This document shows positions 1-26,800 of a DNA stretch of 64,000 nucleotides, in pieces. The translations under genes were made by a program, and so were the position numbers. The stretch spans positions 1 through 64,000 of the forward strand of contig NW_026570334.1 of the NCBI RefSeq assembly GCF_019649055.1. The letters are read 5' to 3'. Source of the DNA: Paramacrobiotus metropolitanus (Eukaryota; Tardigrada; Eutardigrada; Parachela; Macrobiotidae). Below the pieces are notes generated by a model, which saw only the letters and a list, made by a program, of their open reading frames with translations, had not been told where the DNA came from and ran no database searches. Position 1 is the first letter of the stretch; the number at the start of each line of letters is the position of its first letter.

Positions 1-1091
1 GAAAGATCAACGATCTCGACCTACTCCGAGCGAGATGCCACAAACTGATCACACAGATCGTTTTGGCGGACAAAATCGTCGACTCGGCGGAAGGATCCTC
101 GAAACTCTGAGACATATAGCTCGAACGGAGAAATGGGAACGAGACATGGCCGATGCCAACAAGGGCATCGCCACCTTTAACGAAATCGACCGGCTCAACG
201 CCATATTGAAGCGAGCTGATTTACCGTGTCAAATGCGAACGGCAAATCGCCATACTTACTGGCATGTTGGAACGCTCAACCGCAGCCGTCTTCGAAATCA
301 AGGAGCTTGACGAGGCGCACAAAGCGCTCGAAAGCACAAAAGACCTGGCCGATGTTCAGACCGCACTGGTCGAGTCGGAACAGGCAAGCAGAACGTTCAC
401 CAGCAACTCAACCAGGCCAACGAAGAGGCCGAAGTCTATCGAAACGAAGTCGATAGGTATGTGGTGGAACTCAAGAAGGCCGATAACGAGATCGACCGTC
501 TAACGCAACGAACCGACGAACTCGAGTCGGAAATGGAACTTCTCCTTGTTAGAACGGGACGTCGATTCATCGATGCGAACGCTCAGGACATGGGCTTTCT
601 AACCAAAGGACAGCCGATGTCGACCTGGTGGAAGCAAACGCTCAGCTAGCCGACCAGGTTCACGGACTGAACCAAGTCCTCAAGGAGGAACAGAAAATCG
701 AGCTCAACTGGAGTACAACCTGAACGAGCTCGAAAGGTAAACGAGGCGCAACACAGCCGCATCGTTTACAGAGCTCAGTCGAACTATACGACTTCGGCGA
801 ACAAGCCGCCCGCAATCTCACAGAGATGATGCGGCAAATGGATGAGATGGACACGGAAACACGGTGTCTGAGGGAGGAGAAGAAACACCTGGAACAAAGC
901 CAGGTCGAACTTCCCCCATACCGGGAACAAAGCCGGGTTGAACCTCCCTCATACCGAACATCCATGGCACAGGATCAACAGCCGTCACGAACAATCAGTG
1001 ACATCCTGTGGGGAATTAGTCCGACCCAGGAGATGGCGAGAAGGAGAACAACACCTCCTACTTCGTCGGAGTCGTAACGACCGACCCAAGC
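1..1091 (+). pseudogene. gag N-terminal coiled-coil region of the giant Ty3/gypsy element (frames broken)
   Basis: The window opens inside coding sequence. Open stretches in different frames (about 35-310, 264-503, 461-649, 826-1077) are rich in Glu, Lys, Leu, Arg and Gln with heptad-like spacing, for example a run of ELKKADNEIDRL type near 461-520, so a coiled coil is likely. No single frame spans the region, so this copy has several small indels. The position directly before the capsid-like ORF makes it the N-terminal part of Gag or a pre-Gag protein, which is an inference from order. The true start, PBS and 5' LTR are left of the window. Base and word use (many CCGAC and GTCGG words) matches the rest of the element. 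Confidence 0.5.
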
Positions 1092-2456
1092 GTGGGAACA
1101 ATCCCACAACCACCAACAGTTCCGGCTGCTCCGGAACCGGAACACAATACGTCGACCGCGGCACCGCGGGTGCCAACGTCGAACGTGGCGACAACGACGT
1201 CTGCCGGTGCATATACCAGCACCTCGTACGCGCCGGTACCTAACGCGAGAGGAGATCGGACAACAGATGCCGAACGTCTCCCAGTCCCGTCACTGAGACC
1301 GGGTATAGAAGCATATCGCCCACCAAGGACGAACTCCAATCCGAACTTCCTCCGCCAGAACCCGCCGTTCGACCCTGAACGAGCAAGGGCTCGGTCATTC
1401 AACACGACCGACCAGCGGCAGGACGGACAGAACGGAGAGGATAGCTCCGACCAACAAGGTCGGGTGCCCCCACACCGACTAATACAAGGTCGGATGCCGG
1501 TTCAGGGGACACAGCCCAACCGGTACGGAAGACTCTACGAACCAACCGAGTGGATTCTATCCGCAGGCGCCGAGACAAAATCGAGCGCCCCCTCCACAAC
1601 AGCATGGAGGACAGCCACAACGGCCTCGTCACGAAGACCAGGCCCAGGCTCGGTATCCGCAACAGAACGAATACGACAGCTACGACGAAGAAGCCTATCA
1701 ACAGGGGGCATACGAAGACCAACAAGGTCACGTACCATATGCCAACCGCCACCCGCCCCGGCTGCACAACAAGCTGCGCCGGTGGCATACCCGATTCCCC
1801 GGCACAGGACCCGGCACATTGCCTTGGTACGAGCAATGTCTCACGGACGTCAGCAACCCTTACCGCCGTTCGACGGAGACCACCAAACTTCTGGTGGCAA
1901 ACAGATCCGAAGCCTGTATCGTCAAGCCCAACAATGGTATGAAGACGATCAGACTTTCATGTCCGACTTGGTAGCCCGACTAGAAGGCCAAGCGGAAGAA
2001 TGGCACACCCTCGAAGCCGCCGGAGAACCACTCGGTGGATGGCCAGTCAACATGGCTGACCAAATTCGAGCAACGATTTGCGGACAAGAACAAAGTGAAC
2101 ATGATATCCAGATTAACAAACGGATATTTCGTTTCGGCGAAGAAACGCCGGAACAGTACTACGACGCAATGATGTTCATGAAGTCCCAAGTCCCCACGAT
2201 TACCGATCAAATAATAATGTACCATCTCAAGGAGAATATCCACGAACCCAAACTACGGGAAGCCCTGGAAATCAGTATGCCAGCGACACCAATCGAGTTC
2301 CGCGACTACTTACGGAGCTTCGTCAATGGCAAGGAAATGTACGAGGTGCGCAGACAACGCGATGGCGACTACGCCAGAGTCGGGCAGCAACACCTGCACC
2401 TGTCCCGACTCCACCTCCGGCGATACCGCAACAGACCGGATATCAGCCGCATATGA
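1092..2456 (+). CDS. gag: gag: capsid-like region of Ty3/gypsy element
   Basis: A 454-codon frame. The first two thirds are Pro/Thr/Arg-rich and disordered. From about residue 258 a folded, helical region begins with a PPFDGD-type motif (1864-1881), followed by a WHTLEA segment and a long helical part ending near YEVRRQRDGDYA. This fits the capsid domain of Ty3-type Gag, where an 'F.G' motif opens a helical N-terminal lobe. Assembly of virus-like particles is the known role of the family. The last 30 or so residues look like out-of-frame translation: a Pro/Gln/Thr-rich stretch typical of Gag linkers continues in another frame near 2380-2480, so a one-base break sits near 2370-2390. The first ATG is probably not the natural start, because related sequence extends upstream. 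Confidence 0.65.
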   Translation: MGTIPQPPTVPAAPEPEHNTSTAAPRVPTSNVATTTSAGAYTSTSYAPVPNARGDRTTDAERLPVPSLRPGIEAYRPPRTNSNPNFLRQNPPFDPERARARSFNTTDQRQDGQNGEDSSDQQGRVPPHRLIQGRMPVQGTQPNRYGRLYEPTEWILSAGAETKSSAPSTTAWRTATTASSRRPGPGSVSATERIRQLRRRSLSTGGIRRPTRSRTICQPPPAPAAQQAAPVAYPIPRHRTRHIALVRAMSHGRQQPLPPFDGDHQTSGGKQIRSLYRQAQQWYEDDQTFMSDLVARLEGQAEEWHTLEAAGEPLGGWPVNMADQIRATICGQEQSEHDIQINKRIFRFGEETPEQYYDAMMFMKSQVPTITDQIIMYHLKENIHEPKLREALEISMPATPIEFRDYLRSFVNGKEMYEVRRQRDGDYARVGQQHLHLSRLHLRRYRNRPDISRI

Positions 2457-3545
2457 TGCCGGGATACCAAACTCCAACGGCACAGTACGGACAGGTCCGG
2501 CGCCGACGCCACCGGTGCAACAAGCACCAGTCCAGCAACAGACTTGGGCGAGCGCGGCGGCAGCAAACCTGAATCCCCGGCACCTGGAATTGGAACCCCC
2601 GTTAACAACTACGGAGGCCCAGGTTATGGCTCGGGTGGTAACCAAAACAACACAGGTTTTGGTTACGGACAGAACGAACCAGGGATACTCCGCATACGGC
2701 CCACCTCCCACAGGGATATGGCGGCGGAGGTTTTGGTCGCGGAAAGGACGTGGCGGCGGAAAACGCGGTCGCGGCAACTTTCCTAACCGCGGCGGAGGCG
2801 GCAACCAACAAGGGAACCGACCTCCCCAGGCACAACAAAGTGCTCGGCAATACACGACCTACGTGGATCGGATGGAACAACTGTTCCTCAATGGTCGTTA
2901 GCGGACAGCTTTACTTGCAACTTCTGCAAGTTCAGCAATCACGACCAAGCACGATGTGCGTTCATCGGCACTCGGGTACAGGACAACCCGAATCGCCGTT
3001 GGTTCGAGGATTGGCATACGCGATACCAGACGGGAGGACCGTTGGGATCGGCCAACCCGAACTACGCACTGGTCGTGCCGCCCCATAACGCCAACAAGGT
3101 GGAGGCTCGGGCGGCGCCGGTAACGAAACCGGCAGACCGGCCCAGGAAATGGGTCGGTGGCAACCGCAGGAATAGCGGTGGAGGTCAACAAGGATCTCCG
3201 GAACGGCGGCAGCAGTTACCGCCACATCAGCCTTTCGGCTTGGCGTCGCCCAACAACGGGCCAGCTCGGAGTAACTCCCGGGAAGCGCCCAAGGTCGATG
3301 AGCTCCGGTGACTCATTCGACCTCCAACATCCGACCGAACCACCGGACAAGGATAATGCGACAATCGCTAAATTACGGACAGGAATTGAACTTTCACGAC
3401 GATCGAGGAAGGCTATCAACAGGTAGCAACCATCCTCCAACTACTCGGACTGAACGAAAACAGTTCCGAGGAGGATTTCGCAAAAGCGATATCGACCTCC
3501 ACAAAGGAGGCGGAAACGGCTCGGAAGTTAGCCGCTCAGCTCGGC
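2457..3545 (+). pseudogene. gag nucleocapsid region with CCHC zinc knuckle (several frame changes)
   Basis: Plausible protein continues by switching frames: Pro/Gln-rich linker (about 2380-2560), Gly/Asn-rich segment (2580-2690), Arg/Gly-rich segment (2730-2900), then a retroviral-type zinc knuckle. The knuckle is coded at 2916-2957 with spacing C-x2-C-x4-H-x4-C (first Cys codon 2916-2918, last 2955-2957). CCHC knuckles bind RNA or single-stranded DNA in Gag nucleocapsids. The frame then carries on to 3311, and after further changes (near 3311 and 3400) into the next ORF. At least four one-base breaks in about 1 kb show decay or assembly error. The DNA coding the knuckle forms a perfect 7-bp hairpin (2913-2919 with 2925-2931). 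Confidence 0.6.
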
Positions 3546-4439
3546 GTGTACGCCAACAATGGCACCGTCGAAGCTTGGCCCGGGATGCAACAGGCACTCG
3601 AGGCAACCGACCCAGCGCATCAACTTGGCGCTGGAACGTCGGAGGTTGGAACGCAGGAATTGCCCGACCCAAGCAGCGCAAACAATGCGACTGCGCCGTC
3701 CGTCACACAAAGTGACGTAGTACGGCCCGGCCACGGAAGTTGGACCGGATTGCCGGTGAGGACAAACTCAACCGAGCAGCCCAGACGAGGCCCAAGACGT
3801 GGAGGACCGGGACGCCAATCCACGCACCGGGGCAACAGAAACTTCCCCAATGTATCATCCGGACGCGCAACGGATAGATACGCTGCAACAATGGCAGCAA
3901 TCGACCTTACCGAAGAACCGGAAGGATTCGAGCAATGGGAAACCGTCCCATTGGAAGCACAGGTACCCGTTTACTCTCGGCCGGGAGAAGCGGACCTCTT
4001 CCAGTCAAAGGAACAGCCGACCAGAACGGTAGCTGGTTCTCGAACATTCCTCAACCTCGACTACATGTGGTCGACATTGAGGCCAACAGAAGTCTCAATG
4101 GAGGAACGGATATTGTCACAGGCACAACGGTTCGGATCCGCCGAAATACCGGAGGACGGAGTAGCTAACCGACCCGAGGTAATAGAAGTGGTCGAAGTCG
4201 GAGTCGAATCTACACAAGGTTCAACTCAACAGTCAGCCGACCACGGACCGGTGTCGTTAATCCCCATCAAACCAACGGTGCGGGAAGTTACCTTTGAGAA
4301 GGGAACACACAAGAAACCGAAGACAGTTCGAGCTTGGACACACGAAATCCAAGTCGGATCCACGCCCACACTGGCGATGTTGGATACCGGGCGGAAACCT
4401 CGCTCATCGAACAACGGTTTTGCGAGAGGAACGGCTTAA
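3546..4439 (+). CDS. gag-pro junction: Gag C-terminal part and start of retropepsin
   Basis: The frame is open upstream to about 3420, so the start at 3546 is arbitrary. Most of the 297 codons are low-complexity linker. Near the end comes TPTLAMLDTG, the catalytic DTG triad of a retropepsin-type aspartic protease (DTG codons about 4384-4392). Directly after the triad the frame no longer gives protease-like sequence; the expected continuation lies in the +1 frame, so a one-base loss sits in or next to the G run at 4390-4392. Retropepsins cut the Gag-Pol polyprotein. This copy could not make an intact one without frame correction. Confidence 0.6.
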   Translation: MYANNGTVEAWPGMQQALEATDPAHQLGAGTSEVGTQELPDPSSANNATAPSVTQSDVVRPGHGSWTGLPVRTNSTEQPRRGPRRGGPGRQSTHRGNRNFPNVSSGRATDRYAATMAAIDLTEEPEGFEQWETVPLEAQVPVYSRPGEADLFQSKEQPTRTVAGSRTFLNLDYMWSTLRPTEVSMEERILSQAQRFGSAEIPEDGVANRPEVIEVVEVGVESTQGSTQQSADHGPVSLIPIKPTVREVTFEKGTHKKPKTVRAWTHEIQVGSTPTLAMLDTGRKPRSSNNGFARGTA

Positions 4440-6606
4440 CGATCAACCTCTCGGACACTACACCAAAATACTCGGTGTAGGCGGACAAGTCGCCTTCGTA
4501 GTGTCTCATTGCTGTACGGCACCTGTAACAATGCAGGGCTTTACCAGCCATCACACTTTTCACGTCCAGCCGACCGAAGCGGACATCCCAGTGCTACTCG
4601 AATGCGACTACCTGCATTCGAAATTCACCTTCATTCTGACGCCGATTCCTATTCCGGAACAACCAGAAGGAACGAAGGTAGTGCAGTCTATCCCGATACC
4701 AGAGGCATCGGACACGATAGGAAACGAAGTTCGGATTAGTCGGCTTGATCACCCGACGAACTCCACACGTAACATCTGCCGCGATTGCCGGGATACGAAC
4801 CGTACTCTGCTGGAGAAACTAGCACTCCATAATGTGATAGAGCACTATCAGAGACGGATACGCGACGGTACATTACGACCGGCCAGGACTGTACTGAAGT
4901 CTATCCCGATACCAGAGGCATCCGCCGACGCGGATGCCATGAACCGAGAGGAGGTACGACAAAAGTACCGAACTTGGTTCTCGGGAGTTCGACACTTTCT
5001 CGACCAACGGACGTCGGAGATAGTGACCACTCTGCAACAGAACGGAGCGGTAACCCCCGACCAGATACTGGACGCACAACAAACGTGTGAACCGGTAATC
5101 GCCCTCATGAACGACATAGAGGACGAAGCATGGGAATGGGAAGACGAACGAATTCCGATCCATCGACAGTACATGGAGTATGCACTTCCTATACCACCCC
5201 CGCTGGAGATGCCTTGCCAAGAACTAGGCTCCCAACTTTTCGCCTACATGCAGCGAGTAAGGTTGCACGGAGAATCGTCAACGACTGCATTCTGGCAACG
5301 GTGCGGCGAGGACACCGCCATAACGCGGCAAGTTCCTAGACCGTTACCACCACTTGAGCCGCACACTCCAACCAATGTGAAGTTTGCGAGTAGCCCGGCG
5401 AAGCCTCAAGGAAACGTAGTCCCGGAGGAAACCGATCAACCTTATCGGTGTGCTATCTGTCAAGACAATATTGACGAGGTAGTACGAGCAATAAAAGCTC
5501 ATCACGACCTGACTTGGTCGGATGACAGACCGTCGTCACCGTCGCCTCCGCAACAGGAACGGAAGGTAGATCGCTTTCGGAAGCCCCAACAGACGAGGAT
5601 CCGATGGCTGAGCAACATAGGCTCGCAGCCAGCCGACCTTGAGAATCAGGACGGAGCAAGTCGACCTACCCAACCGACGGATAAAGTCGACCAACCAGAA
5701 CCGACCACAAAGGTCAGATTCGAAAACATGTCAGAAGTCGACCCCGAAAACGGATCGGAAGTCGAATTCGAAGATTATCAGTCGGACGACTCGGACATAC
5801 AGAGTACGAGCGATTCGGCGGACACGGACTCCGATAACCGACCTTCGGAAGAATCCGAAGAAGACGACGAAGAATTCGATCTGTCAGTCCGACACTGTAA
5901 GACGGATAAACCGAGCATAAACGACTCGGATGATTCGTCATCGGAGGACGAAGAACCGACCTTCGACATCCGGCTAACTACAGCATTGCGGTCTATAGTT
6001 CACACAGAATTTATAGACGAGCAACCGGAACAAACCGAACAGCCCAAGCCGGTCGACTCCGAACAACAGGAGGAACTCGACCAACTTAAGGCTTTGTGGG
6101 AATTCGGAGGAGGTAAACCGGAACAAGACGATTTCCGACCTCCAACAATCGTCATTCAGCAATTGTCAACCGAACAACCGACCTTGGCTAACTTGACCGA
6201 CCAACAGAAGTCGGAGCATTTCAACACATGGAAGGCACGAGTCGCCAAAGTCAAGACGATTGACGAGCTGGACCTGGACAACAAATGCCCAGAAGTCCAC
6301 CACTTGAAGTTGGATCCTTACGTAGAGACGAAAGCGTTAGACCGACAAGTTGTCTTTAACAGCGAACGAGTCTCTCTTCCACCATGGTCAACATGTTCGA
6401 TCAAGGTACGGACGGCCAAACCAATGGACCCGAGAAGACGAATTTACTTCTCTACCCTACAACGGGTAGTCCGACCTATTCGGCCAATCGAAGCCAAGAT
6501 CGACATCCGACCCCAAGTCGACACGGCCTGGATAAACATCCAGAATACGACTCACCAAACGAAGGTGTTGAAGAAAGGCGTACGACTTGGCCATGCAATA
6601 TGCTGA
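4390..6606 (+). CDS. pro-pol linker: protease remainder, acidic low-complexity region, pre-RT region
   Basis: One long frame that continues the protease immediately after the DTG triad and runs to a TGA at 6604-6606. The first 80 or so codons finish the protease-like fold (hydrophobic ILGVGGQVAF-type strand; LLECDYL near 4597). A short peptide beginning SIPIPEAS is encoded twice, about 4687-4711 and 4900-4923, a small internal duplication. A Cys pair (CAICQDN, about 5449) and a strongly acidic Asp/Glu/Ser stretch (about 5780-5960) follow. The last part (FNSERVSLPPWSTCSIKV, near 6358) is a beta-rich domain often found just before Ty3 RTs. The frame hands over to the RT frame by a one-base shift near 6600. 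Confidence 0.55.
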   Translation, partial: GGNLAHRTTVLREERLNDQPLGHYTKILGVGGQVAFVVSHCCTAPVTMQGFTSHHTFHVQPTEADIPVLLECDYLHSKFTFILTPIPIPEQPEGTKVVQSIPIPEASDTIGNEVRISRLDHPTNSTRNICRDCRDTNRTLLEKLALHNVIEHYQRRIRDGTLRPARTVLKSIPIPEASADADAMNREEVRQKYRTWFSGVRHFLDQRTSEIVTTLQQNGAVTPDQILDAQQTCEPVIALMNDIEDEAWEWEDERIPIHRQYMEYALPIPPPLEMPCQELGSQLFAYMQRVRLHGESSTTAFWQRCGEDTAITRQVPRPLPPLEPHTPTNVKFASSPAKPQGNVVPEETDQPYRCAICQDNIDEVVRAIKAHHDLTWSDDRPSSPSPPQQERKVDRFRKPQQTRIRWLSNIGSQPADLENQDGASRPTQPTDKVDQPEPTTKVRFENMSEVDPENGSEVEFEDYQSDDSDIQSTSDSADTDSDNRPSEESEEDDEEFDLSVRHCKTDKPSINDSDDSSSEDEEPTFDIRLTTALRSIVHTEFIDEQPEQTEQPKPVDSEQQEELDQLKALWEFGGGKPEQDDFRPPTIVIQQLSTEQPTLANLTDQQKSEHFNTWKARVAKVKTIDELDLDNKCPEVHHLKLDPYVETKALDRQVVFNSERVSLPPWSTCSIKVRTAKPMDPRRRIYFSTLQRVVRPIRPIEAKIDIRPQVDTAWINIQNTTHQTKVLKKGVRLGHAIC

Positions 6607-7945
6607 TGTCTATGAACCAGAAATCAACAATGAATTCGTCGAATGGGAACTCCCACACAAAGTGGCGAAGACATGGCCCCCTACTCGGGAAGTAAAGCCA
6701 AAACCCCAGTTCGAAGTTTTCGAGGCAACAGGAGTTCGATTCCAACGGAAGGTCAAACTCATACCTCGTGCCGTAACCATGGTAGAAGTCGTCCTGGACG
6801 TACCGGTATCCACGGACCAGAAACTGATGTACCTAGGAGAGTCCGACCCCAAACGAGACGGAGTCGAATTCATGGACGGCGTAACCAAGCATGACGGGAA
6901 ACGATTCACCGTCATGGTGGCAAACCACACTCATCGGGAAGTCACCTTACGTAAAGGTGCACCGATGGGTCGAGCCGAAGCATTCACGATGATGACGGAC
7001 GACCAGAAGGTCGAAGAGGCACGAGTCAATACGGCAGAGGTAGAAAAGGAAGACGCGGAATCCCAGGAGGAGCGACGGAGAATCATCGACTCCATGAACT
7101 TCGGTAAAAACCTAACCGACGAGCAACTAGCTAAATTGAAGGCAGTTGCATGGGATTACCGGACTGTATTTCCGACCTCGAAGAAACCTTACGGAGACGT
7201 CAAAGGGGTAACACATACCATTGATGTCCAAGGTGCACAGCCGATTAAGATGAACCCCACCAGGACAAGCTGGAAGGGACGTGAATTTATCCAAAAACAC
7301 GTGCAAGAGATGCTCGACCAAGGAGTCATCGAACCATCATCGGCTGCATGGAGCTTCCCCGTCGTCTTAGCCGCGAAACGGAACGGAGACGGCACGGTAG
7401 GAACACGCTTCTGCATCAACTACATAAAGTTGAACGCCGTGACGAAAAAGAATAACTACCCACTACCGAACCCGGACGAGCTACTAGACCGATGCGCCGG
7501 AATGGAGTATTACGGCAAGGTAGACTGTCAGTCCGGTTTTTGGCAAATTCCTATGGACGAACAATCCAAAGACTACACGACCTTCGTAACACCCGAAGGC
7601 ATGTGGCGATTTAACCGTATGCCGTTTGGAGTCTGCAACGGACCAGCAACTTTCCAAATGCATATGGATAAAATTACGGCATCAGCCCGGAAGAAAGGTG
7701 TGTTCGCCTACATTGACGACATCATCTTCTTCGGTAAAACTTTCGAAGACTTCCTGGAGGCTTTCCGAGCAACTCTCGAATGCCTCCGCGATGCTGGATT
7801 TACGGTCAAACCCTCCAAATGTGAGATCGGAACGGACAGACTGCTGTTCCTCGGACACGTCCTCAGCAAAGACGGAGTCCAGACCGATGACGAGAAAGAC
7901 TCAGAAAGTGGCCTGTATTGCAGAACAAAGCTGCCCGAGAACTGA
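6587..7945 (+). CDS. pol: pol: reverse transcriptase (Ty3/gypsy type)
   Basis: RNA-directed DNA polymerase that copies the element RNA. From about residue 180 the standard Ty3 RT blocks appear in order: THTIDVQ, a REFIQKHVQEMLDQGVIEPS-type segment, TRFCINYIKLNAVT, YPLPNPDELLD, the catalytic block YYGKVDCQSGFWQIPM (first Asp), PFGVCNGPATFQ, and YIDD (bases 7709-7720, catalytic Asp pair), then FLGHVLS. The family motifs look intact. The frame leaves RT-like sequence near 7900 and continues one frame over (next entry). The N-terminal 180 residues belong to the pre-RT linker. Closest known group: Metaviridae (Ty3/gypsy); the clade cannot be set by eye. Confidence 0.92.
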   Translation: MAMQYADVYEPEINNEFVEWELPHKVAKTWPPTREVKPKPQFEVFEATGVRFQRKVKLIPRAVTMVEVVLDVPVSTDQKLMYLGESDPKRDGVEFMDGVTKHDGKRFTVMVANHTHREVTLRKGAPMGRAEAFTMMTDDQKVEEARVNTAEVEKEDAESQEERRRIIDSMNFGKNLTDEQLAKLKAVAWDYRTVFPTSKKPYGDVKGVTHTIDVQGAQPIKMNPTRTSWKGREFIQKHVQEMLDQGVIEPSSAAWSFPVVLAAKRNGDGTVGTRFCINYIKLNAVTKKNNYPLPNPDELLDRCAGMEYYGKVDCQSGFWQIPMDEQSKDYTTFVTPEGMWRFNRMPFGVCNGPATFQMHMDKITASARKKGVFAYIDDIIFFGKTFEDFLEAFRATLECLRDAGFTVKPSKCEIGTDRLLFLGHVLSKDGVQTDDEKDSESGLYCRTKLPEN

Positions 7946-17409: not shown

Positions 17410-18173
17410 CGGACAACATTGAAGAGCACGGTCCACGCAGGCGTCTCTTCCCGTCAAAGTCGCCATCACCAGTCAGGACCAAGGAACGACTCTTGGAAAT
17501 CCTGAAGGCGACTCCGTCTTCCCTACCACCGGCTGAAGAGAAGCCGAGCCCGTCACGGAAAGTGATGGGAGCGAAGGCCTTATTTACTCCCGGCATCCAC
17601 AAGAAGTTGGTCGGCCAAGCTAAAACATTAGATCTCCAACGGATACTCTACGAAGCACAACTTCAAGGAGGTATCCGAGATCGGACCATGACCGAAGAGC
17701 AACAGACTCAAACGGCCCAGAAGATCCACGCCACAATCCAGGACAGAGACAAAGTCTTGAGACGGTTGGTGACATTGAGATGCGGAAAGCAGGAGTTACG
17801 ACAACTCCCGCTGGATCCGACTATGATCCAAACAATTCAACGGCTCCGCAACCCTAGCATCAACCCAGGCGCTTACACGCTGGAAATCCAACCTCGGCCC
17901 GGAGAAGAGGTTACCGAGAAGATTCCGATAACAATGTCGGATAGTAGTGAAGATGAGGAGAATGCGGACAACGCCGACTCCGACGACTCCATTCAACAGA
18001 AGGCAGCGGCACCACCGAAGGGATCCACGCCGAAACGAGGCAGATCGCCGGTAAAACAAATTTCGCCGACCCGATCAGCATCCCAGCCGACTAAGCTGCC
18101 AAGTCAACCGACCACGGAGAAACCACTCAGGTTCACACCTCGGAACACCCCGACCAAACCGAAGAAAACCTAA
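17385..18173 (+). CDS. ORF B, first part: basic helical and Ser/Pro-rich segment, unknown function
   Basis: The frame here gives sensible protein from about 17385 (KFARKPKLTDNIEEHG), overlapping the last codons of ORF A in another frame, so A and B may once have been one polyprotein. The section holds a helical region (GIHKKLVGQAKTLDLQRILYEAQ, about 17595) and an acidic then Arg/Ser-rich stretch (SDSSEDEENADNADSDDS; KRGRSPVKQ). It ends at a TAA (18171-18173). The next ATG is 6 bases on, in the same frame, so either reinitiation occurs or the TAA is a lesion. No known domain seen. Confidence 0.55.
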   Translation, partial: KFARKPKLTDNIEEHGPRRRLFPSKSPSPVRTKERLLEILKATPSSLPPAEEKPSPSRKVMGAKALFTPGIHKKLVGQAKTLDLQRILYEAQLQGGIRDRTMTEEQQTQTAQKIHATIQDRDKVLRRLVTLRCGKQELRQLPLDPTMIQTIQRLRNPSINPGAYTLEIQPRPGEEVTEKIPITMSDSSEDEENADNADSDDSIQQKAAAPPKGSTPKRGRSPVKQISPTRSASQPTKLPSQPTTEKPLRFTPRNTPTKPKKT

Positions 18174-18179
18174 GACGCG

Positions 18180-20972
18180 ATGGACACAACATCCCCTTCG
18201 GAAGCGCGAGTCGAAACAACGGTCGAAACGTCACCACAAAGGGACGAACCGACCTCGGTACACTCCGGCCCACGTCTAACAATTGACGAGTCTCGAACAA
18301 ACGAGTCGGTAAAGGAGTCGGTAAACATACCGACCAAACGGAGCACGGCTAAAGAGAAACCACCTCAGGACTCGTCGCGCGAATTCCATGACGACCCAGC
18401 CTTACAACATGTGAAGGACCTGACAAGGTCGGAACAGGATGCCTGCATCGACATGGCATATCCGGAGGATAGGGAACTCTGGCACTCGTTGCGAATCCGA
18501 CGTGCCAGTATAGTTGGAAACACCACGGAAGCTCGGCGCGATCACGACCGACTTACCGAGAAGATGGCCGACGTTATGAAACGTATGGGAGAACATTACC
18601 GAGCGGAAAAGAGTCGACCTAAAGCCCTACAAGCGGCTACGCCGACTCGACATAAAGTCACCGCTCCGGAACCCAAGTCGACCAAGAAGACGGCACAGCA
18701 ATCCGTCAAGATGAAAGTCCCTCCTCCAACCAGACAACCTTCCGTCCAGATCGACGATGATCGCGACACTCGGGTCATCAACTCGGCCAACTCCGCGAAA
18801 TCCCACAAGGATAAACGGAAGGCCAAGAAGGAAGCAGCGAAACAATCCTCTAAGTCGCAACCGACGGAAACCCAGAAGAAACCAGTAAAGCCGGAGGCCA
18901 AAGAGACGACCAAACCGAAGTCGGACTCTACGGTAAAGACGCCGAAGCCTAATCCGGCCAAGCGGCATAAGTCATCCGATGACCTGGATATTTCGGATGC
19001 CGGCCCACAAAGGACCGAGCAGAAGGAGAAAGCTCAACAACCGCACGACAAGGAAGCGGTGGAGCGTAAATTCAAAGAAGTCATGGAACGAACCGGCACA
19101 AAGCCGGCTAAGACTTCAGGAGGTCGGCTACGGAATCCACCAAAACCGCCGACTCCGACCCAACAACCCCAGCCCTCTACATCCAAGCAACAGTCTGACG
19201 TCGAATCCGATCACATCTCGGACATTGAAGAACAAGACTCAATCTCCGACCATGGGGAAGGTGACCCCTATGAAGGATTTAAAGGCGACCTGAAAGAAAT
19301 GTTCGACCATGGAGCGGACACTGATGAATCACAGTGGCCGGCCCCAGACGATGTACGTGAACGCCTTCCGGACGAACAGCCGGATGACCCGGTCGATACA
19401 TTAATCCGTACCGTCCGAGTACACGTCGAGGTCGTAAGGAGCATCGAAAACGCCAGGAAAAACGGCGTGGACATCTACCAGTCCTTGGTCCGAGACCTGT
19501 CCAACAACATCCAAGTCGGAGGCGAAACCGGAAAATGGTTGGCGCATCAACTCATGATGCAGATTGTCGCCTGGACTTTGGATTTCGGATTAGCAGTAAC
19601 CGTTCACCGACAATGGGGACGGATGGCCGAACTGCTTCCACCGGACCTCATCAAGGCACTCAAAAGTGCAGCCGCCAGGAATGCGGACGATACACCGACT
19701 AGAATTGCACGGTGTATCGGATACAGCAGGAATCCCCGCGGATCAACGTTGGTCCAAATTGCCCGTGTATATAACGTGATGTACATGGACAAGAAGGGGA
19801 ACATCGACGAAATCATCACGGACAGGATAAGCGACCGGATTACGTCTTTGGTCGAACAACATACCCTCCAGACGACCAATGCGGAACGAGATGTACCGGT
19901 ACGGTATACCGTGCCTAACTTCATCCCGGAACAACATCGGCGTGAGTTTAACCTCCGGATGTCTTACGCCAACACGGACAAGCCCCCGGCTGGCACGGAA
20001 CCTATTGAAGAATACAGCGACTCCAACGAACAACCGTCGGAGGATGCAGCTGCCTTGCTGCATATAGCTCGTACGGCTGGACAGTCGTCACAAAGACGAG
20101 TCCAAGTCTTACCCCGACCCCGAGCACCGTTCGAACCGACAACATATGTCGGTACGGCAGCAGCTCCAGGGGGACGAGCAAGTCTGGCAAAACCGACCAG
20201 GAGCGCGAAAGGACGGTTCATTCTGAGGGACGTACAGTCACTCCCGCCGTCTTCGCCCATGGAAATTTCACCGGAACCGGAAGACTTGACCCAACGGAAG
20301 GTAAAGTCAAAGTCGACCAAGACGAAGCCGACTAAGCCGGCCAAGAAAAAGGAACCGAAGTCATCGGAACCGATCTCGTCATCCGAGGAGGAAACCGAAG
20401 ATGACGATGACGACGACGATTTCCAAACACCTGGAAATGGATCGCCGAAAGACGATGACGATGACGATGAAAATGGAAGACCACCACCACCATCAGGTTC
20501 AGCACCTCAACAGCAGGCCGAACCGGAGATACCGGACAAACAACCGGACGAGAAGGACAGCGGCGACAAAGCCGACGAGTCCAAAGACAATGGAGACGAT
20601 GGCGTAGTATATATCCCTCGTCAGTACGGTAAACGGATACCGATAACCCCTGACACTGACGAGCGGCCACTTCTCTCCGAATGGAATGAAGACACCATGG
20701 AAGTGTTGCCGGACGACATCCCGTCGTTGACCAACGTCCGCGTAAAGTACACGGGCATCAAATCGGCCTCAAAACCGAAGCCGAGCGTCTCGGAATACGA
20801 CGCGGGATGGATGTACACATTCGCCGCCCTGAAGGCCTTGGCTACACGTGGACCGAAATTCGCCACACCAAGAATCGCCTTCAAACTCCTCCAACATTGG
20901 AAGGTAGACGAGACGGGCGACTGGCGACAACTCAGCCAGAATAACGTACGACATTACTGCGACCTGGGATAA
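18180..20972 (+). CDS. ORF B, main part: highly charged protein with one ordered helical domain, unknown function
   Basis: 930 codons from ATG 18180, in the same frame as the preceding part. Residues 1-400 are Lys/Pro/Thr-rich and disordered. Residues about 400-620 look folded and helical (RVHVEVVRSIENARKNGVDI, WLAHQLMMQIVAWTLDFGLA, RTARNADDTPTRIARCIGYS-like run), with a mix of hydrophobics absent elsewhere. After that come Asp/Glu runs (about 20400-20475) and a final ordered piece ending WRQLSQNNVRHYCDLG. The stop TAA (20970-20972) is again isolated: the same frame continues for 170 codons. No Env features (no signal peptide, no transmembrane helix) are visible. Not recognised as any named family. 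Confidence 0.75.
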   Translation: MDTTSPSEARVETTVETSPQRDEPTSVHSGPRLTIDESRTNESVKESVNIPTKRSTAKEKPPQDSSREFHDDPALQHVKDLTRSEQDACIDMAYPEDRELWHSLRIRRASIVGNTTEARRDHDRLTEKMADVMKRMGEHYRAEKSRPKALQAATPTRHKVTAPEPKSTKKTAQQSVKMKVPPPTRQPSVQIDDDRDTRVINSANSAKSHKDKRKAKKEAAKQSSKSQPTETQKKPVKPEAKETTKPKSDSTVKTPKPNPAKRHKSSDDLDISDAGPQRTEQKEKAQQPHDKEAVERKFKEVMERTGTKPAKTSGGRLRNPPKPPTPTQQPQPSTSKQQSDVESDHISDIEEQDSISDHGEGDPYEGFKGDLKEMFDHGADTDESQWPAPDDVRERLPDEQPDDPVDTLIRTVRVHVEVVRSIENARKNGVDIYQSLVRDLSNNIQVGGETGKWLAHQLMMQIVAWTLDFGLAVTVHRQWGRMAELLPPDLIKALKSAAARNADDTPTRIARCIGYSRNPRGSTLVQIARVYNVMYMDKKGNIDEIITDRISDRITSLVEQHTLQTTNAERDVPVRYTVPNFIPEQHRREFNLRMSYANTDKPPAGTEPIEEYSDSNEQPSEDAAALLHIARTAGQSSQRRVQVLPRPRAPFEPTTYVGTAAAPGGRASLAKPTRSAKGRFILRDVQSLPPSSPMEISPEPEDLTQRKVKSKSTKTKPTKPAKKKEPKSSEPISSSEEETEDDDDDDDFQTPGNGSPKDDDDDDENGRPPPPSGSAPQQQAEPEIPDKQPDEKDSGDKADESKDNGDDGVVYIPRQYGKRIPITPDTDERPLLSEWNEDTMEVLPDDIPSLTNVRVKYTGIKSASKPKPSVSEYDAGWMYTFAALKALATRGPKFATPRIAFKLLQHWKVDETGDWRQLSQNNVRHYCDLG

Positions 20973-21482
20973 CATGCCGGGAAGATAATACGTACGTACA
21001 CCAGCACAAAGCGGATATACTACGAGTTCCCACCGGCTAAAAAGGACCCGGCCCCTTCAACATATGAAGGATGGGCACACGCCATCGAAGCGTGTATGGA
21101 AATGTCCTGGCATCCCGACGAACTTACTCGTGGAGAAATACTCCACCAACTTACAGCACGGTTCGAGTTCGAATGGACAGCAGTAGAACCGCAGTTGGTC
21201 GACCCTAAATACAAAGCCAAACCGGACGTAATCGCCGGACGCAAGAAGTATTCCCTGGAAGACGAATTGGAATTCGTCTTATCAAAGGCACTCTATCAAC
21301 AAAGATTTGCCACGAACACCGATAAAGTCCAGGGCGGCCAACGATTTATCGCATTAAACCCATCAACTCACCGGCACGGACACTTACCGAAGGAACGATC
21401 CACCTCGGCACAACCGACCGAGTTGGCTGACTCGCACCAAGCAAGTCGGCCGGAATCGTCAGAAGCACCGACACGGGAGTGA
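20973..21482 (+). CDS. ORF B continued beyond a single TAA
   Basis: In the same frame as the 930-codon part, open from directly after the TAA to TGA at 21480-21482. It has an ordered start (YYEFPPAKKDPA, about 21018; EGWAHAIEACMEMSWHPDELTRGEILHQL) and a polar tail (HRHGHLPKERSTSAQPTELADSHQA). The aromatic and hydrophobic content matches the end of the preceding part, so the two probably form one domain. This is the third isolated stop in otherwise open sequence between 11.8 and 21.5 kb. Confidence 0.55.
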   Translation, partial: HAGKIIRTYTSTKRIYYEFPPAKKDPAPSTYEGWAHAIEACMEMSWHPDELTRGEILHQLTARFEFEWTAVEPQLVDPKYKAKPDVIAGRKKYSLEDELEFVLSKALYQQRFATNTDKVQGGQRFIALNPSTHRHGHLPKERSTSAQPTELADSHQASRPESSEAPTRE

Positions 21483-21698
21483 GGGAACGCAGAACGCGTC
21501 GGAGGAGAGGCATAACCGACCTTCCTCCAGTGACACCACATAGGCGTCATCGACCAACAGAAGTCGACTTACCTCATTAGACGACCACAAAGGCGTCTTG
21601 GACCAGTTCGAGAACCGACCTGGCCCGACCGTAGTAATTATAGGGTGTAACTTATAGGATGGAACCGAGAAACGGTTTGCTTACTTCTCTTTTGACAG
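21483..21698 (+). promoter_or_regulatory. ORF B-C spacer: hairpins, TTATAGGG motif and acceptor-like TTGACAG
   Basis: Non-coding, 216 bases. It holds three of the element's small hairpins in a row: stems 21531-21537/21543-21549 (loop ACATA, one A-C mismatch), 21550-21554/21563-21567 (loop CAACAGAA) and 21579-21586/21592-21598 (loop ACAAA, bulged A at 21584). TTATAGGG with GTGTAACTTATA follows at 21638-21656, as upstream of ORF A. CTTCTCTTTTGACAG ends at 21698 and looks like a 3' splice site. Confidence 0.5.
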
Positions 21699-23885
21699 AC
21701 TCGTACGGAAGCTTATACGGTGGACTGCCAACAGTGCGGGGATAACGCGACGAGGGACAACAACAGATTGCCCTGCGCGCAATGCATCGTTTCCTTCACC
21801 AACGAACGAGTTACCGGCACCGGACCGCAACACCGAGCTCAGGCGGCGGCACTTTACATTAATGTTGTCGCTGGCAACTTGAGCGCATATCGGTACCTGG
21901 CCGGCAGAGAATACCTCGTTAACCAATTAGAGTCACACGAACAGGATAACTTGGCCACCATCCAGCGACAACGAATGCGCGACCCGAGATGGGAAGGAAC
22001 CCGACCACCAGTCTTAACGGATAGACTGTGGGAGTATCGTCAGATGCAGGATCTGCACCGTCAACTAGACGATCAGAAGAAGGTCAAGGAGGTCGATAAA
22101 CGGATCGCCACAATGCGAGTCCATCCACCACCGACCGACTACGAACCGGAAATAAAGATTCGGGTACCGGCACCCACACAGGGTCGCCCGGAAACCGAGC
22201 AGCTGATGCACACTATACGCGATGTCTTCGTCGGAGACCCAAACCGACCAATGACTAGTGCATCGGTGACGATGATGATGAACATGCCGGACGGAACCCA
22301 ACAGTCGGTTACCTTTACGCCGGCAACTCAAGAACAGTCGATGGCAATCCCACATAGGGCAACGCCAGTAGTCACACAGGCTCGTCCAACTGTTTCCCAT
22401 CAGATCCCCCAACACGGAACCTATGAAACTCGGAATCAACCGGCAACTCAACAGCAGCAACGCCGACCGAGTAAAAACTTAGCGGGACACGACCTCCGAC
22501 ACAGGATTGGTCCTGTTGATCTTCGAGACAGAATCGAAGGCCAACGTGCAGTCATTCGACAAGTCGGAAAAGAGCCGACCAGACCTCCACCAGGAAAACG
22601 GACTGGATCCGGAGAAACGGGAATCGGACTTACGGTAGACTTAACAAATAAGTCGAAACGTAACTTTGTCCCACCCGAACAGCAGCCGGAAGCCCATCAG
22701 GCGGAACCGGCGGCTGAAGTCCCAGCTGAACTGGCAGCTCAACCGGAACAAATGGACGTCGAAGTAGCCGACCAGATGGCGCAACTACCACAAGTAGAAG
22801 TGCCGATCCGAGAAGACCTTCGTTACGATCGCGCTCGACAACAAGGAATCGAGGTCGTCATGCTACATCCCACCGAACGGACAAACCACATTATGAACGT
22901 CATGAATTACGAGGAACGGAATCGACCACAGGTTTGGCGCATGGTAGAAAACCTTCGTCAATTCCTCGTCCGATCTGGATACCAGACGCTACTGGAACAA
23001 CATCGGTGGCAACCTGACTTCAACATGAATGCGCACACAGCACAGAATGTTGAACATCCGTACACCAGATCGAATGCGTTACCGTCGATGACCGACCCGG
23101 TCCTGCTGAATGTACCACTTTACAGTCCGGACGGAACGCGTGCGAGCCAACTAGGAGCTCGGGAATACCCCCATGACGAGATGGAAAGTATTGCCCAGTT
23201 CGTCATCACGGACGCCCACCCAGCCTTTGTAATAACCGCGGCTCGGGCAGCACTGGACTTAACCCAGTACCTCCCAGAAGGGGAAGTCGATATGGCCCAG
23301 GACGGAGTCACAGCATTCCTGCGATTCATCTTCGCAGCTCGGCTCGGCAATTACTTTTGCCATTACACCCTGTACGGCCTATACCAGAACGAGATGATAC
23401 CAGCGGCTGTGGAGACCCTCGTAGCCCAACTTGGCACACCAATGAGAAGTGTTATCCTCGCCATCTGGATGCGCGACTTGCTGTACACCCACGAACGGTA
23501 TGCGACAAAGTATGCCTTTCGTGAGGATCACACAGATCCCAGCGACGACGCGACCAGATTTATCAGCTGGTATCGACAAAAGAAGACTTTACCCAGCGGA
23601 TTTAACTCATCGCCCTACGAACCTTGGATGTCGGACGACATAGCACCCGGCGCACGACCGTATGCGCTGCGGCTCCGCAAACAAGCGGCCAGGGAATCGA
23701 GGAAAGGCAGGGCGGATCGCCCCGGCCAAGAAACGGATGAGACTGACGAGATGTCTCAACGGAGTGGCCCGGCGACTTGTAAACCCAGGGACCCGACTAT
23801 CCGGCCACATAACCGACCTGGTCCGGACGATGACGAAGAAGACTACTTCGGCGGCGACAAACCCGTCGAAGTTCCACTCAGTTAA
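21699..23885 (+). CDS. ORF C: zinc-finger-like N-terminus and helical protein, unknown function
   Basis: The frame opens exactly at the base after TTGACAG (21692-21698), and an in-frame TGA lies just before CAG. There is no ATG near the start: the first conserved-looking residues (DCQQCGDN ... LPCAQC, two CxxC pairs 12 residues apart, possibly a zinc finger) precede any ATG. This fits translation from an mRNA spliced to an upstream leader that supplies the ATG. About 728 codons. The middle (residues about 150-370) is Pro/Gln/Glu-rich. The C-terminal third is ordered: WRMVENLRQFLVRSGYQTLL, a hydrophobic FITDAHPAFVITAARAALDL stretch, FAARLGNYFCHYTLYGLYQNE, then SVILAIWMRDLLYTHERYA. It ends TAA at 23883-23885. 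It has some Gag-like flavour (helical domain plus possible zinc binding), but I see no proven homology. Confidence 0.7.
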   Translation, partial: TRTEAYTVDCQQCGDNATRDNNRLPCAQCIVSFTNERVTGTGPQHRAQAAALYINVVAGNLSAYRYLAGREYLVNQLESHEQDNLATIQRQRMRDPRWEGTRPPVLTDRLWEYRQMQDLHRQLDDQKKVKEVDKRIATMRVHPPPTDYEPEIKIRVPAPTQGRPETEQLMHTIRDVFVGDPNRPMTSASVTMMMNMPDGTQQSVTFTPATQEQSMAIPHRATPVVTQARPTVSHQIPQHGTYETRNQPATQQQQRRPSKNLAGHDLRHRIGPVDLRDRIEGQRAVIRQVGKEPTRPPPGKRTGSGETGIGLTVDLTNKSKRNFVPPEQQPEAHQAEPAAEVPAELAAQPEQMDVEVADQMAQLPQVEVPIREDLRYDRARQQGIEVVMLHPTERTNHIMNVMNYEERNRPQVWRMVENLRQFLVRSGYQTLLEQHRWQPDFNMNAHTAQNVEHPYTRSNALPSMTDPVLLNVPLYSPDGTRASQLGAREYPHDEMESIAQFVITDAHPAFVITAARAALDLTQYLPEGEVDMAQDGVTAFLRFIFAARLGNYFCHYTLYGLYQNEMIPAAVETLVAQLGTPMRSVILAIWMRDLLYTHERYATKYAFREDHTDPSDDATRFISWYRQKKTLPSGFNSSPYEPWMSDDIAPGARPYALRLRKQAARESRKGRADRPGQETDETDEMSQRSGPATCKPRDPTIRPHNRPGPDDDEEDYFGGDKPVEVPLS

Positions 23886-26800
23886 GATCGAGTTCCCACA
23901 TTGGAACTCGATCCCCCACTTGGAACAGACTAAGGGGACTTAACGCCGAGAAACGGCACGGTCGAGAACCGACCCGACTGAGAACCAGTCTAACGGATAA
24001 ATTGCATCGTCGAGAAACGACCCCGGAATGGACATTTTTCTTTAGTTTTTTTCCAGAAACCGACCAAACCATGTATACAGCGGAAGTCAACGATGACTTT
24101 GCCAGAATGCTGACTACACAAGTCAGCCGGATTCTTCGGTTTTGACCCGGATATGAGTGGTTAGACCTGACAAGACGGCTTTTTCCACCGTTCCGGTACG
24201 TCTTCCGAGGAATCCCCTGGACAGAACTGAGCAAACCGACCTCAGTTCCCCAGCATGGCATGAACAGATCGTGAACCACATCTGCTAACATAGCAGATCG
24301 ACAACCACGTTCTGCGACCATCGGAGCCAACAGAAGCCCCAATCCGCGTTACATGGAGCCGACCGATAGTTACATGGTACAGATCACACCATTAACCACG
24401 ACCGGCTATGAAGATTACTCCGGCCAACCGACTCCGGAGCATAGACCGAGAGGATTGCGCTAACGTGGCGCTGAATACGTCGCTGCGTGTTCACCGCCAT
24501 GTTTGCCGAGCACACGTGGCCAACTTCGGAACCGGGTAGCCGAGCAGCCTTCACCAGTGTAAAAGCGGACATCCCTCGGCCGAGTTGCCAACAGCGCAAG
24601 AAAAACTCGGATTCGACTATATGTACTTGAGTCGACCACAAAGGTCAACTTTGCACCTCACCCATAACTTGGAGACATAACGGATATCGTGGCACTAACC
24701 GACCACAAAGGTTGGTTGTGTAAGCCGATCACCGAGATCGGTTTTGGAAAACTCGGAACGAATTGTTCAGAGAGTTAAAATCGGAACCGCAACGACGCAG
24801 ATCGCCGAACCACGACTCGCTACCTCAGCCGATCACACAGATCGACTAAGTATATGGTAGCTGACTAACGAGAAATCGACATTACGGCCGACCACACAGG
24901 TCGCCCATAACGGCCAACAGAAGTCGATCATGAAGAATGGACGGAAGCTAGCAGTAGTTATGTGGTAACGTAACCGGATTCTCCGTTTGAACCCAGATCT
25001 ACAGGAACTCAACTAGGAACTTGTACCTGGAGTCCAACCGCAGTCTCCCCCGGACGATATCGGGTAAACCAGCCAATTCACCGGTGACCACGACTACGCG
25101 CGTCTCGAACGTGCTGCCATTACCTGAAGAGGAACAGCGACGGTGATTTGGCCACCACACCAACGACTCCGCCGCGACCTGCTTCCCCATGTCTTCAATG
25201 GAACATCCTAGGCAGACCGAGTTAGAATACTCGGCCGGCACCCCCTTGATGAACCTCCGTGGGCGAAGAACTCTTGCCCGCAACAGAAACGGCCAAGAGT
25301 CCTTCGTTCGCGGCAAAGAAAAATTTCCCCGTGGACGTGAGTTGTCTACCCCCAACAGAAGCGGCTAGGCGTCTCAGGTTCGCGACAGAACAGAACGGAA
25401 GAATCGGATCTGACGACCTCAGGGACTTGCATGCGCATCAAGTTTAAACCAAAGAGCTTGGCTTGTCAACCGGGGCCACAAAGACCCTTAGCGTTGTGAG
25501 CCAGCGTGATTGCATGATGAAGCGCCAGTCACTCGGCCAACAGACGCCAAGGAAACTTTTACCTCGCAGGACTCGGCGACCCAGAGGCAAGTCACTCGGA
25601 TAAACCAGCCAACAGTAGCTGGGATCCGACCCAGAGTTCATGTCAGGAATCACAGAAGGAACGGAGTTGGGCTGCCGAACATCCTTCTGCCAGTCAAAAC
25701 TGACCGAAGGATGTCCGAACAACGGAGACCCGGTCAACTGTAGCCGTAGGCACAGAACTTGTAAGTCGGAAATCGACCTCCCAGCCGAAGAAATTTATCT
25801 CTTCGACGGACGAACACACAGTTCATCCGCTTCGAAGAAGTCGGAAATCAGCCGACCTTGGGATTCCGACATGGATAACCGATCTCGAACGGAAGTTGGA
25901 AGTCATCAGATGGAGGTCGGAAGTATACGACAACAGGTCGGAAAATCCATCGGAAGTAGAAAATCGACCTCTTAGCCGAAGAATTTTGCTTTTTCGACGG
26001 ATGAACACACAGTTCATCCGACTCGAAGTAGTCGGAAATTAGCCGACCTCAAATGAAGGTCGGAAGTGACCGAACAGAAGTCGGAAGGACGCGACAACAA
26101 GTCGGCAAAGCCATTTGGAAGTCGAGAACTGACCTCCTAACGGAGAAACTTAGCCTTCGGACGGATGAACACACAGTTCATCCGACCTTCCGAAGCCGAC
26201 TATAACCGACCACAAGTCGGAAGTCGGAAACCCAGTCAACATGACCGAAGACGGTTGATCACTGTTTGTGGTGGATGAATTCGACCTGAAGGCACTTGTT
26301 TAGCCCCACATGGGCATAGTATTGCAGGTTAACCCTAGTCGACCACCGACGGAAAGGATGACCGACCTCGACAGAAGGTCGGATAACAACGGAATATACC
26401 GGATGGAAGTCGACTGGACACTTCCATCGAACAAACCCATGATTCCCGATCGGACCTTCGAGCCAGTTCGACTCGGATTTCCTCAAACCAGGCTCGTGGT
26501 AGCAGATTAAACGGTTGTAACCGACCACTTTTAAACGGAACTGCTGTACATGACGACCACAAAGGCCGCATGACTTACATACAGCTTTTTCCGACCTGAA
26601 CTTTAAGAATTCGGAACATAGCCGAATTCCCTTTAGCCGCCGATCGACTTATCGGTAGGCCGACCTCGGTCAAACTGACCTCGATCCTATTCCCCACTCA
26701 GAGAGGATGCCTCGGCATTTGCAACCGCAACAGTGCCTCTCTACCCCGAACGGATGGATACGAGTCGGAAGTAAGTGTTTAACCGTGCTTACCCGACTTC

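Follow-up and report, generated by a model that had tools for sequence, protein, structure and literature searches.

A genome-length array of hairpins with a common ACANA loop in a giant Ty3/gypsy-type retrotransposon of Paramacrobiotus metropolitanus

The window analysed here, 64,000 nucleotides long, comprises bases 1-64000 of contig NW_026570334.1 (C114 in copy coordinates) of the tardigrade Paramacrobiotus metropolitanus, whose assembly amounts to 169.8 Mb. Its left part is occupied by a Ty3/gypsy-type long terminal repeat (LTR) retrotransposon of about 27-31 kb, the plus strand of which carries an array of hairpins built around the word CACANAG, that is, an ACANA loop closed by a C-G pair. 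A sequence-only reading of this DNA had placed such hairpins at 47..26572; the array does lie there, although the interval was too short: on the right the element runs on, through non-coding 3' sequence, to near 27828, and on the left it extends past the start of the contig.

The element and its coding parts

Pfam matches on one strand (+) follow the order reverse transcriptase, RNase H, H2C2 and rve integrase. The window copy lacks its 5' end because the contig begins at window base 1. The parts of the element, including its open reading frames (ORFs), are:

1..27828, +, 3' part (about nine tenths) of a giant Ty3/gypsy-type LTR retrotransposon (Pfam domains, genome-wide copies, 5' continuation in L040/L041)
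1848..2390, +, Gag capsid-like region (same-species match P0066, 31%; all-helical low-confidence model)
2916..2957, +, single CCHC zinc knuckle (C-X2-C-X4-H-X4-C), possible nucleocapsid (pattern match; no Pfam match)
6572..7942, +, reverse transcriptase (PF00078, 9e-28)
7590..9383, +, RNase H, two pieces in the window copy (PF17919/PF17917; C-terminal piece in 8862-9383)
9491..11632, +, integrase, H2C2 and rve (Pfam; relatives in the genome)
11812..16776, +, accessory ORF A, 1654 amino acids (no recognised domain)
18180..20972, +, accessory ORF C, 930 amino acids (same-species matches alone)
21720..23885, +, accessory ORF E, 721 amino acids (no recognised domain)
27660..27828, +, right-hand part of the 3' LTR (169 nt recurring in other copies; left edge not fixed)

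In other copies the 169 nt of 27660-27828 are found again about 2.5-2.6 kb upstream of the equivalent of window base 1 (e.g., C65:28429-28595, C3:2499023-2499193), and they flank other copies on both sides (one example being C3:2469454-2469624 with 2499023-2499193), so that they are part of the LTR. Picked out by eye, six pairs of these end pieces are separated by 27-31 kb (e.g., C3:2469454-2499193). A short LTR is probable; when 27000-27840 was taken as one piece, no pair at two-LTR spacing was seen by eye among the best 40 of 469 candidates scored. The RNase H pieces (7590-9383) are separated by about 0.75 kb, and judged by this split the window copy looks damaged.

The sole match of the Gag-like region among 8000 candidates scored was P0066, from P. 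metropolitanus, and no convincing solved-structure relative was obtained (best E 0.074). The ORF C protein (18180-20969) gave two matches among 7999 candidates scored, both from P. metropolitanus (P0001 and P0002). ORF A has no solved-structure relative at E up to 1, the large accessory ORFs have no Pfam match above cut-off, and no Rfam family reaches the gathering score in the element.

The hairpin array: counts and controls

In 47-26572, CACANAG occurs 48 times on the plus strand and once on the minus strand, and 26 of the 48 sites have at least three perfect pairs outside the C-G. All 18 hairpins named in the sequence-only reading are present, within 3 bases of the starts given for them, and the excess that it had noted is real, although it had been undercounted. 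Exact Watson-Crick stems with at least 2, 3 and 4 pairs outside the C-G number 32, 26 and 15 in 1-26600, against means of 0.73, 0.21 and 0.04 (maxima 5, 3 and 1) in 300 dinucleotide shuffles, in which the bare word appears 11.9 times on average (maximum 23). Within seven ORFs the same three classes count 19, 14 and 9, against 0.82, 0.24 and 0.09 (maxima 5, 3 and 3) in 1000 synonymous-codon shuffles. Both checks had been proposed beforehand, and the shuffles fall far below the observed stems, so chance or composition and codon use are rejected as sources. Coding CACANAG words use all codon phases (16, 7 and 6 of 29), and hairpins with a seven-base NACANAN loop and at least three perfect pairs occur in every section of the element, coding and non-coding, at 1.35-2.94 per kb. 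Because it is confined to one strand, uses all codon phases and extends into the non-coding part, the array is regarded as a feature of the RNA.

A relaxed pairing rule was also applied, in which G-T pairs and either one bulge (1-2 nt) or one 1x1 mismatch are allowed and at least three pairs beyond the C-G are needed. In 1-27840 this rule admits 45 of 51 CACANAG sites, against 377 of 1869 other C.....G heptamers; with at least four pairs, the counts are 40 of 51 and 188 of 1869. When 77-nt windows were folded, the predicted probability of the closing pair exceeded 0.5 at 41 of the 51 sites, with a mean of 0.79 compared with 0.08 for shuffled flanks; it was below 0.5 at 819, 6656, 11943, 16019, 22351, 22373, 24637, 25477, 27627 and 27641. 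The two approaches disagree in part, since 8 of the 45 rule-passing sites fall below 0.5 and 4 sites outside the 45 lie above it, and 37 hairpins satisfy both. Nine further CACANAG words (two of them overlapping), eight of which have stems by eye, are present in the 1.5 kb upstream of the contig start, as seen in two other copies, L040 and L041.

The 45 hairpins are given below; the basis in brackets is the relaxed pairing rule unless stated otherwise, and "copies" refers to per-site alignments of other copies.

42..63, +, ACANA hairpin (pairing rule)
311..330, +, ACANA hairpin (pairing rule)
815..830, +, ACANA hairpin, 3' bulge, predicted pairing 0.02 (pairing rule, folding)
3496..3510, +, ACANA hairpin (pairing rule)
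3701..3717, +, ACANA hairpin (pairing rule)
5703..5715, +, ACANA hairpin (pairing rule)
5991..6018, +, ACANA hairpin, 11 pairs and a bulge (pairing rule)
6653..6665, +, ACANA hairpin, predicted pairing 0.02 (pairing rule, folding)
9771..9785, +, ACANA hairpin (pairing rule)
10399..10418, +, ACANA hairpin, 5' bulge (pairing rule)
11286..11300, +, ACANA hairpin (pairing rule)
11940..11954, +, ACANA hairpin, predicted pairing 0.04 (pairing rule, copies, folding)
12649..12665, +, ACANA hairpin, G-T replaced by A-T in copies (copies, covariation count)
12756..12775, +, ACANA hairpin, 5' bulge (pairing rule, copies)
12990..13008, +, ACANA hairpin (pairing rule, copies)
13292..13311, +, ACANA hairpin, bulged A two pairs below the loop (pairing rule, copies)
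14417..14433, +, ACANA hairpin (pairing rule, copies)
14461..14476, +, ACANA hairpin, N varies among copies (copies)
14623..14639, +, ACANA hairpin, stem perfect in several copies (copies)
15226..15252, +, ACANA hairpin, covarying pairs (copies, covariation count)
15904..15918, +, ACANA hairpin, one covarying pair (copies, covariation count)
16444..16460, +, ACANA hairpin (pairing rule, copies)
16727..16741, +, ACANA hairpin (pairing rule, copies)
16825..16846, +, ACANA hairpin, between ORFs (pairing rule, copies)
17308..17320, +, ACANA hairpin (pairing rule, copies)
18229..18246, +, ACANA hairpin, bulged A (pairing rule, copies)
19001..19017, +, ACANA hairpin, 1x1 mismatch (pairing rule, copies)
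19093..19107, +, ACANA hairpin, pattern with 41 genome-wide matches vs 0 for control (pairing rule, genome word search)
20085..20099, +, ACANA hairpin (pairing rule, copies)
21530..21550, +, ACANA hairpin (pairing rule)
21579..21598, +, ACANA hairpin, bulged A (pairing rule)
22168..22186, +, ACANA hairpin (pairing rule)
22370..22382, +, ACANA hairpin, predicted pairing 0.02 (pairing rule, folding)
23525..23539, +, ACANA hairpin (pairing rule)
24629..24651, +, ACANA hairpin, non-coding, predicted pairing 0.22 (pairing rule, folding, copies)
24696..24718, +, ACANA hairpin, non-coding (pairing rule, copies)
24830..24844, +, ACANA hairpin, non-coding (pairing rule, copies)
24886..24905, +, ACANA hairpin, non-coding (pairing rule, copies)
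25472..25488, +, ACANA hairpin, N = A, C or G among copies, predicted pairing 0.42 (pairing rule, folding, copies)
25807..25829, +, ACANA hairpin in tandem repeat (pairing rule, copies)
25998..26020, +, ACANA hairpin in tandem repeat (pairing rule)
26162..26184, +, ACANA hairpin in tandem repeat (pairing rule)
27420..27441, +, ACANA hairpin near the 3' end (pairing rule, copies)
27621..27639, +, ACANA hairpin, 3' end, predicted pairing 0.0 (pairing rule, folding)
27637..27652, +, ACANA hairpin, 3' end, predicted pairing 0.0, overlapping 27621..27639 (pairing rule, folding)

An unbiased scan, covering all loop words from 3 to 10 bases long (those of 5-9 bases also with a free position) and taking the pairing rate from the element, singled out ACANA/CACANAG with p about 1e-31, and the other words of very low p contain its letters; in 27001-64000 the best loop word of the same scan was TNAAA (4e-8), the top eight words per class being listed in both cases. 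The fourth loop base at the 51 sites is C in 20, A in 20, G in 7 and T in 4. Hairpin spacing is irregular (coefficient of variation 1.06), by which an even, periodic arrangement is rejected. Three tandem units, some 165-190 bp long, occupy 25759-26186, and in each of them a hairpin stem of 8-9 bp encloses CACACAG; a 25-mer at 25996 has 32 exact matches genome-wide.

The motif is somewhat wider than the C-ACANA-G loop earlier described as constant, because NACANAN with other flanking bases also carries stems. With at least three perfect pairs, 52 of 218 NACANAN loops are paired on the plus strand (mean 3.4, maximum 9 in 100 shuffles) and 1 of 31 on the minus strand. By type, stems accompany 7 of 17 AACANAG, 5 of 15 AACANAT, 5 of 16 GACANAA, 6 of 8 CCACANTG and 4 of 6 CCACAAG words on the plus strand, and none of the 3, 4, 1, 1 and 1 respective words on the minus strand. 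The RBMY loop is C(A/U)CAA, so that CCACAAG represents an RBMY-type loop, a minor type in the element. Bulges are on the 5' side in 12 cases and on the 3' side in 5, a weak 5' preference, and a 5' bulged A two pairs below the loop is present at 4 of 44 classified sites (13299, 14466, 18235 and 21586). Counted over all loops, there are 222 hairpins with 5 bp or more, compared with 107 in 60 shuffles; those with ACA in the loop number 80 against 13, and those without it 142 against 94; the rest of the window is similar to the latter (253 against 161), and this excess of non-ACA hairpins is not claimed as part of the finding. A broader strand-specific, A/C-rich vocabulary is also seen in 1-26600, where CAACAG occurs 46 times on the plus and once on the minus strand and AACCGA 73 and 4 times.

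Conservation among copies and apparent restriction to one family

A search with 11800-14800 returned 41 of 56 rows longer than 980 nt, at 73-100% identity and with the window itself included (best 40 of 140 candidates scored), and from these long matches 20 copies of the middle part were chosen. Each copy contains 15-22 CACANAG words on the plus strand (7 in the short piece L028) and 0-2 on the minus strand, and 320 of the 381 words in the 20 copies pair. Core positions are 98.6% identical (2044 cells), compared with 89.7% for the flanks (40421 cells); most sites are kept when examined one by one, and stem changes are largely compatible with pairing. Conservation and pair counts rest on 18 of 20 sites, 16019 and 21005 being left out, and some indel-shifted alignment rows were left as they fell, here and in the non-coding set. 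At these two words, four of six core positions drop to 68-81% and two stay at 100%; they look like background, although in the window copy folding gives 21005 a pairing probability of 0.99. At the 18 sites, changes on both sides affect 7 of 88 pairs (23 cells, against 0-8 cells when partners are slid by 1-3), and one-sided changes that still pair account for 30 cells. The conservation of core and pairing for which the sequence-only reading had asked is thus found in the 20 copies, and covariation is found too, although to a modest extent.

For the non-coding 3' part, seven copies were compared by eye, L005 being dropped as the same copy as L004. The free base differs at 4 of 12 sites (24834, 25477, 25815 and 26558), and the core changes at three (24704, 24834 and 25815), over six positions, one row at 24637 being shifted. 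Additional hairpins are present in older copies, partly in stretches that do not align with the window, and 17 of 23 unaligned CACANAG words pair. The older copies L032, L033 and L035 seem to hold some 570 nt more, with ACANA hairpins, near locus position 3600-3950 (in L032 after reverse complementation), which the window subfamily lacks. As judged from these comparisons of sequence, the array is real, strand-specific, not derived from composition or codon use, and kept across copies. The earlier claim that an RNA structure, not a protein sequence, has been selected holds on several grounds (shuffles, strand bias, three phases, non-coding presence, copy conservation and modest covariation), and selection on the hairpins, for loop identity and stem pairing, is well supported.

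The exact word CGACCACANAGGTCG has 552 matches genome-wide against 1 for its reversed control, and CCGGCACANAGCCGG has 41 against 0. A sister family in the same genome (P0003) has an integrase 58% identical over the protein and up to 70% in the core, and its 6.5-kb stretch (L042, G000:C4:180236-184735, and L043, C4:184736-186735) contains no CACANAG on the plus strand and one on the minus strand, about 12 being expected at the window density (51 in 27.84 kb). From the 552 CGACCACANAGGTCG matches, the first 100 (C1 to early C15) were compared by eye with the places of other families, several places being unassigned to a family. Among the matches listed, none lies within 30 kb of 10 P0004-type places, of two 78% integrases (C5 and C6) or of four of the five P0003-type places on C1-C14. 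Near the fifth, C10:439332, matches occur 12 and 22 kb on, which may be part of an adjacent copy of the window type whose end is at C10:472526.

In the sister element, hairpins have loops of the types CAATAA, CAATA and CAANTA, and ACAAGGC forms the loop in three cases, once on a stem of 7 bp. Repeated units contribute to its raw CAANTA signal (p 9e-8); when 756 nt of repeats are crudely removed, CAANTA drops out and ACAAGGC (p 1.3e-5) is among the words ranking first, a p value that the lowest of 60 shuffles matched. A second loop word in the sister family is, consequently, only suggestive.

Elsewhere in the window, a dispersed repeat lies at 28515-30280, shortly downstream of the element, with 97% copies on C162 (both orientations), C7 and C132. 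A weak reverse transcriptase match, below the Pfam cut-off, at 32034-33743 (-) in a GC-rich island is probably another retroelement remnant. The nuclear RNase P RNA (Rfam RF00009, 134 bits) is encoded at 40883-41174 (-), close to same-strand diacylglycerol kinase exons.

What may read the array

A single trans-acting reader is the simplest cause of the array, and we somewhat favour, over other accounts, a genome-length hairpin array bound by a protein made by the element for the packaging or condensation of its own RNA. The genomic RNA would carry 45 hairpins in the part covered by the window and about 8 in the 1.5 kb upstream, sharing the ACANA loop, usually closed by C-G, on freely variable stems. 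The element's own protein, most likely Gag/nucleocapsid or otherwise an accessory ORF product, would grip each loop, and binding at dozens of sites would select and condense this very long RNA into particles and exclude other RNAs. A reader made by the element is favoured because the array is restricted, so far as seen, to one family, and Gag is the first candidate because packaging needs binding at many sites along the genomic RNA, as in the logic of parechovirus and MS2. Both the identity of the reader and its packaging role are what we infer; the single CCHC knuckle, the Gag-like region and the sister family without the loop in 6.5 kb are compatible with the Gag reader suggested in the sequence-only reading.

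Several observations weigh against this interpretation. Known zinc-knuckle nucleocapsids usually read unpaired G, which ACANA lacks, and the Gag identification is weakened by the absence of a Pfam match above cut-off in the Gag region and by a structural model that, while all-helical, is of low confidence (predicted local distance difference test score, pLDDT, 47). Translation of the ORFs must unfold the hairpins, predicted pairing is low at 8 of the 45 hairpin sites, and the bare word is less frequent in the part between gag and RNase H inclusive, with 5 occurrences over about 8.5 kb. The "free" base is 97.9% identical among copies and differs at 3 of 18 middle-part sites, a pair is broken in 58 of 1665 cells, and the covariation is only modest, 11 of the 23 both-sided cells coming from a single pair at 14628. 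The sister comparison, moreover, concerns one 6.5-kb stretch.

An unlikely alternative is that a host RNA-binding protein of RRM or NHL type reads the array, the element having accumulated sites for nuclear export, stability, localisation or translation control. It would equally account for dozens of equivalent sites, and readers of loop and shape with variable stems exist, as reported for the NHL protein LIN41 (PMC5908797) and for RRM stem-loop complexes including RBMY (PMC4661536). As described there, such readers resemble the proposed one, recognising a hairpin by loop and shape with stem sequence largely free, although the LIN41 response element has a three-base loop and a U-A closing pair, a five-base control being unbound (PMC5908797), in contrast to the five-base, C-G-closed loop here. 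The lack of the motif on the plus strand in 6.5 kb of a related giant family makes a general host reader less likely and favours an element-encoded one, and the absence of listed CGACCACANAGGTCG matches within 30 kb of nearly all other-family places compared points the same way. To a reader encoded by the element but serving export of unspliced RNA, protection from silencing or decay, or cytoplasmic assembly bodies, we give a similarly small share. The large accessory ORFs without Pfam matches leave room for it, an RNA of nearly 30 kb has unusual problems of export and stability, and in yeast Ty3 untranslated region (UTR) and POL sequences affect retrosome localisation as well as packaging, according to the parts of the reports used (PMC4974528, PMC11381356); against it, no export or decay factor is recognised among the element ORFs.

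That the array is a by-product without selection, of composition bias, coding repeats or tandem duplication, appears very improbable. The element is T-poor on the plus strand (0.17) and abounds in words like CCGACC, the hairpins at 25807-26184 are three products of tandem duplication, and non-ACA hairpins exceed shuffles as well; but dinucleotide and synonymous shuffles fall far short, the excess centres on one loop word with differing stem sequences, the sister stretch has none on the plus strand at a similar GC content (0.55 in L042), and conservation is lacking at the two CACANAG words that have no clear stem. Least credible of all is pairing of the loops with an external RNA (e.g., an anticodon or a small RNA with UGU) in place of a protein: ACA could pair with a UGU-containing loop, but a fourth base free and a fifth fixed between sites would fit protein contact better than a helix.

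Kissing between loops of the same RNA is also unlikely, as the complement CTNTGTG occurs once on the plus strand in 47-26572 and the top loop words listed include none of this kind. An N6-methyladenosine (m6A)-type motif, as generally defined, is rejected because C precedes the A and the fourth base is free between sites. The METTL16-type hairpin has the motif UACAGARAA and needs G after ACA, whereas the fourth loop base is G at 7 of 51 sites.

Among known systems, dispersed packaging signals are the closest. According to the parts of the reports drawn on here, parechovirus genomes contain 76-96 dispersed GxU loops (PMC5431903), the hepatitis B motif is RGAG (PMC7612645) and the MS2-type motif includes a 5' bulged A (PMC6281560). 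All resemble the present array in having many stem-loops with a common short loop motif and differing stems; here too loop-sharing stem-loops are found along the element's genome beyond chance and are conserved among relatives of the same element. The present array differs in its far stricter loop (C-ACANA-G) and in its carrier, an LTR retrotransposon with an RNA of nearly 30 kb, and contact with a coat protein is here only postulated. The MS2 operator, with a four-base loop and a bulged A two pairs below, differs from the five-base loop described here, in which such a bulge is seen at 4 of 44 sites. The yeast elements Ty1 and Ty3 are likewise LTR retrotransposons; a 5' pseudoknot helps Gag recognition in Ty1 (PMC8396678), UTR and POL both matter in Ty3, and the portions of these reports consulted describe no repeated constant-loop hairpins for either (PMC8396678, PMC4974528, PMC11381356). 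The planarian Burro elements are giant gypsy-like retrotransposons, the internal region of which can reach 25 kb and includes sizeable additional coding regions (PMC6431247). Both they and the window element are gypsy-type LTR giants, although here the LTR is probably short and the accessory ORFs are separate, and the part of that report consulted mentions no hairpin array. Among titles and abstract beginnings on tardigrade or Paramacrobiotus retrotransposons and on dispersed retroelement packaging, no report of such an array was found.

How LTR-retrotransposon RNA is selected for packaging is not precisely defined, as the consulted parts of the Ty3 reports indicate (PMC4974528, PMC11381356), and loose motifs are part of what makes the dispersed signals of RNA viruses difficult to assess, whereas the motif described here is strict enough to show in raw sequence, and nature supplies both replicates, in the form of dozens of copies, and controls, in the form of sister families. 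A possible but doubtful extension is that each giant family writes its own loop word in dispersed hairpins as an address code for its own Gag or partner protein, ACANA here and perhaps a CAANTA/CAATA-type word in the sister family. If a Gag-like protein reads the array, multi-site RNA recognition would be extended to LTR retrotransposons; and, if true, self/non-self sorting among co-resident elements would become directly testable and a new short RNA-protein tag would be available.

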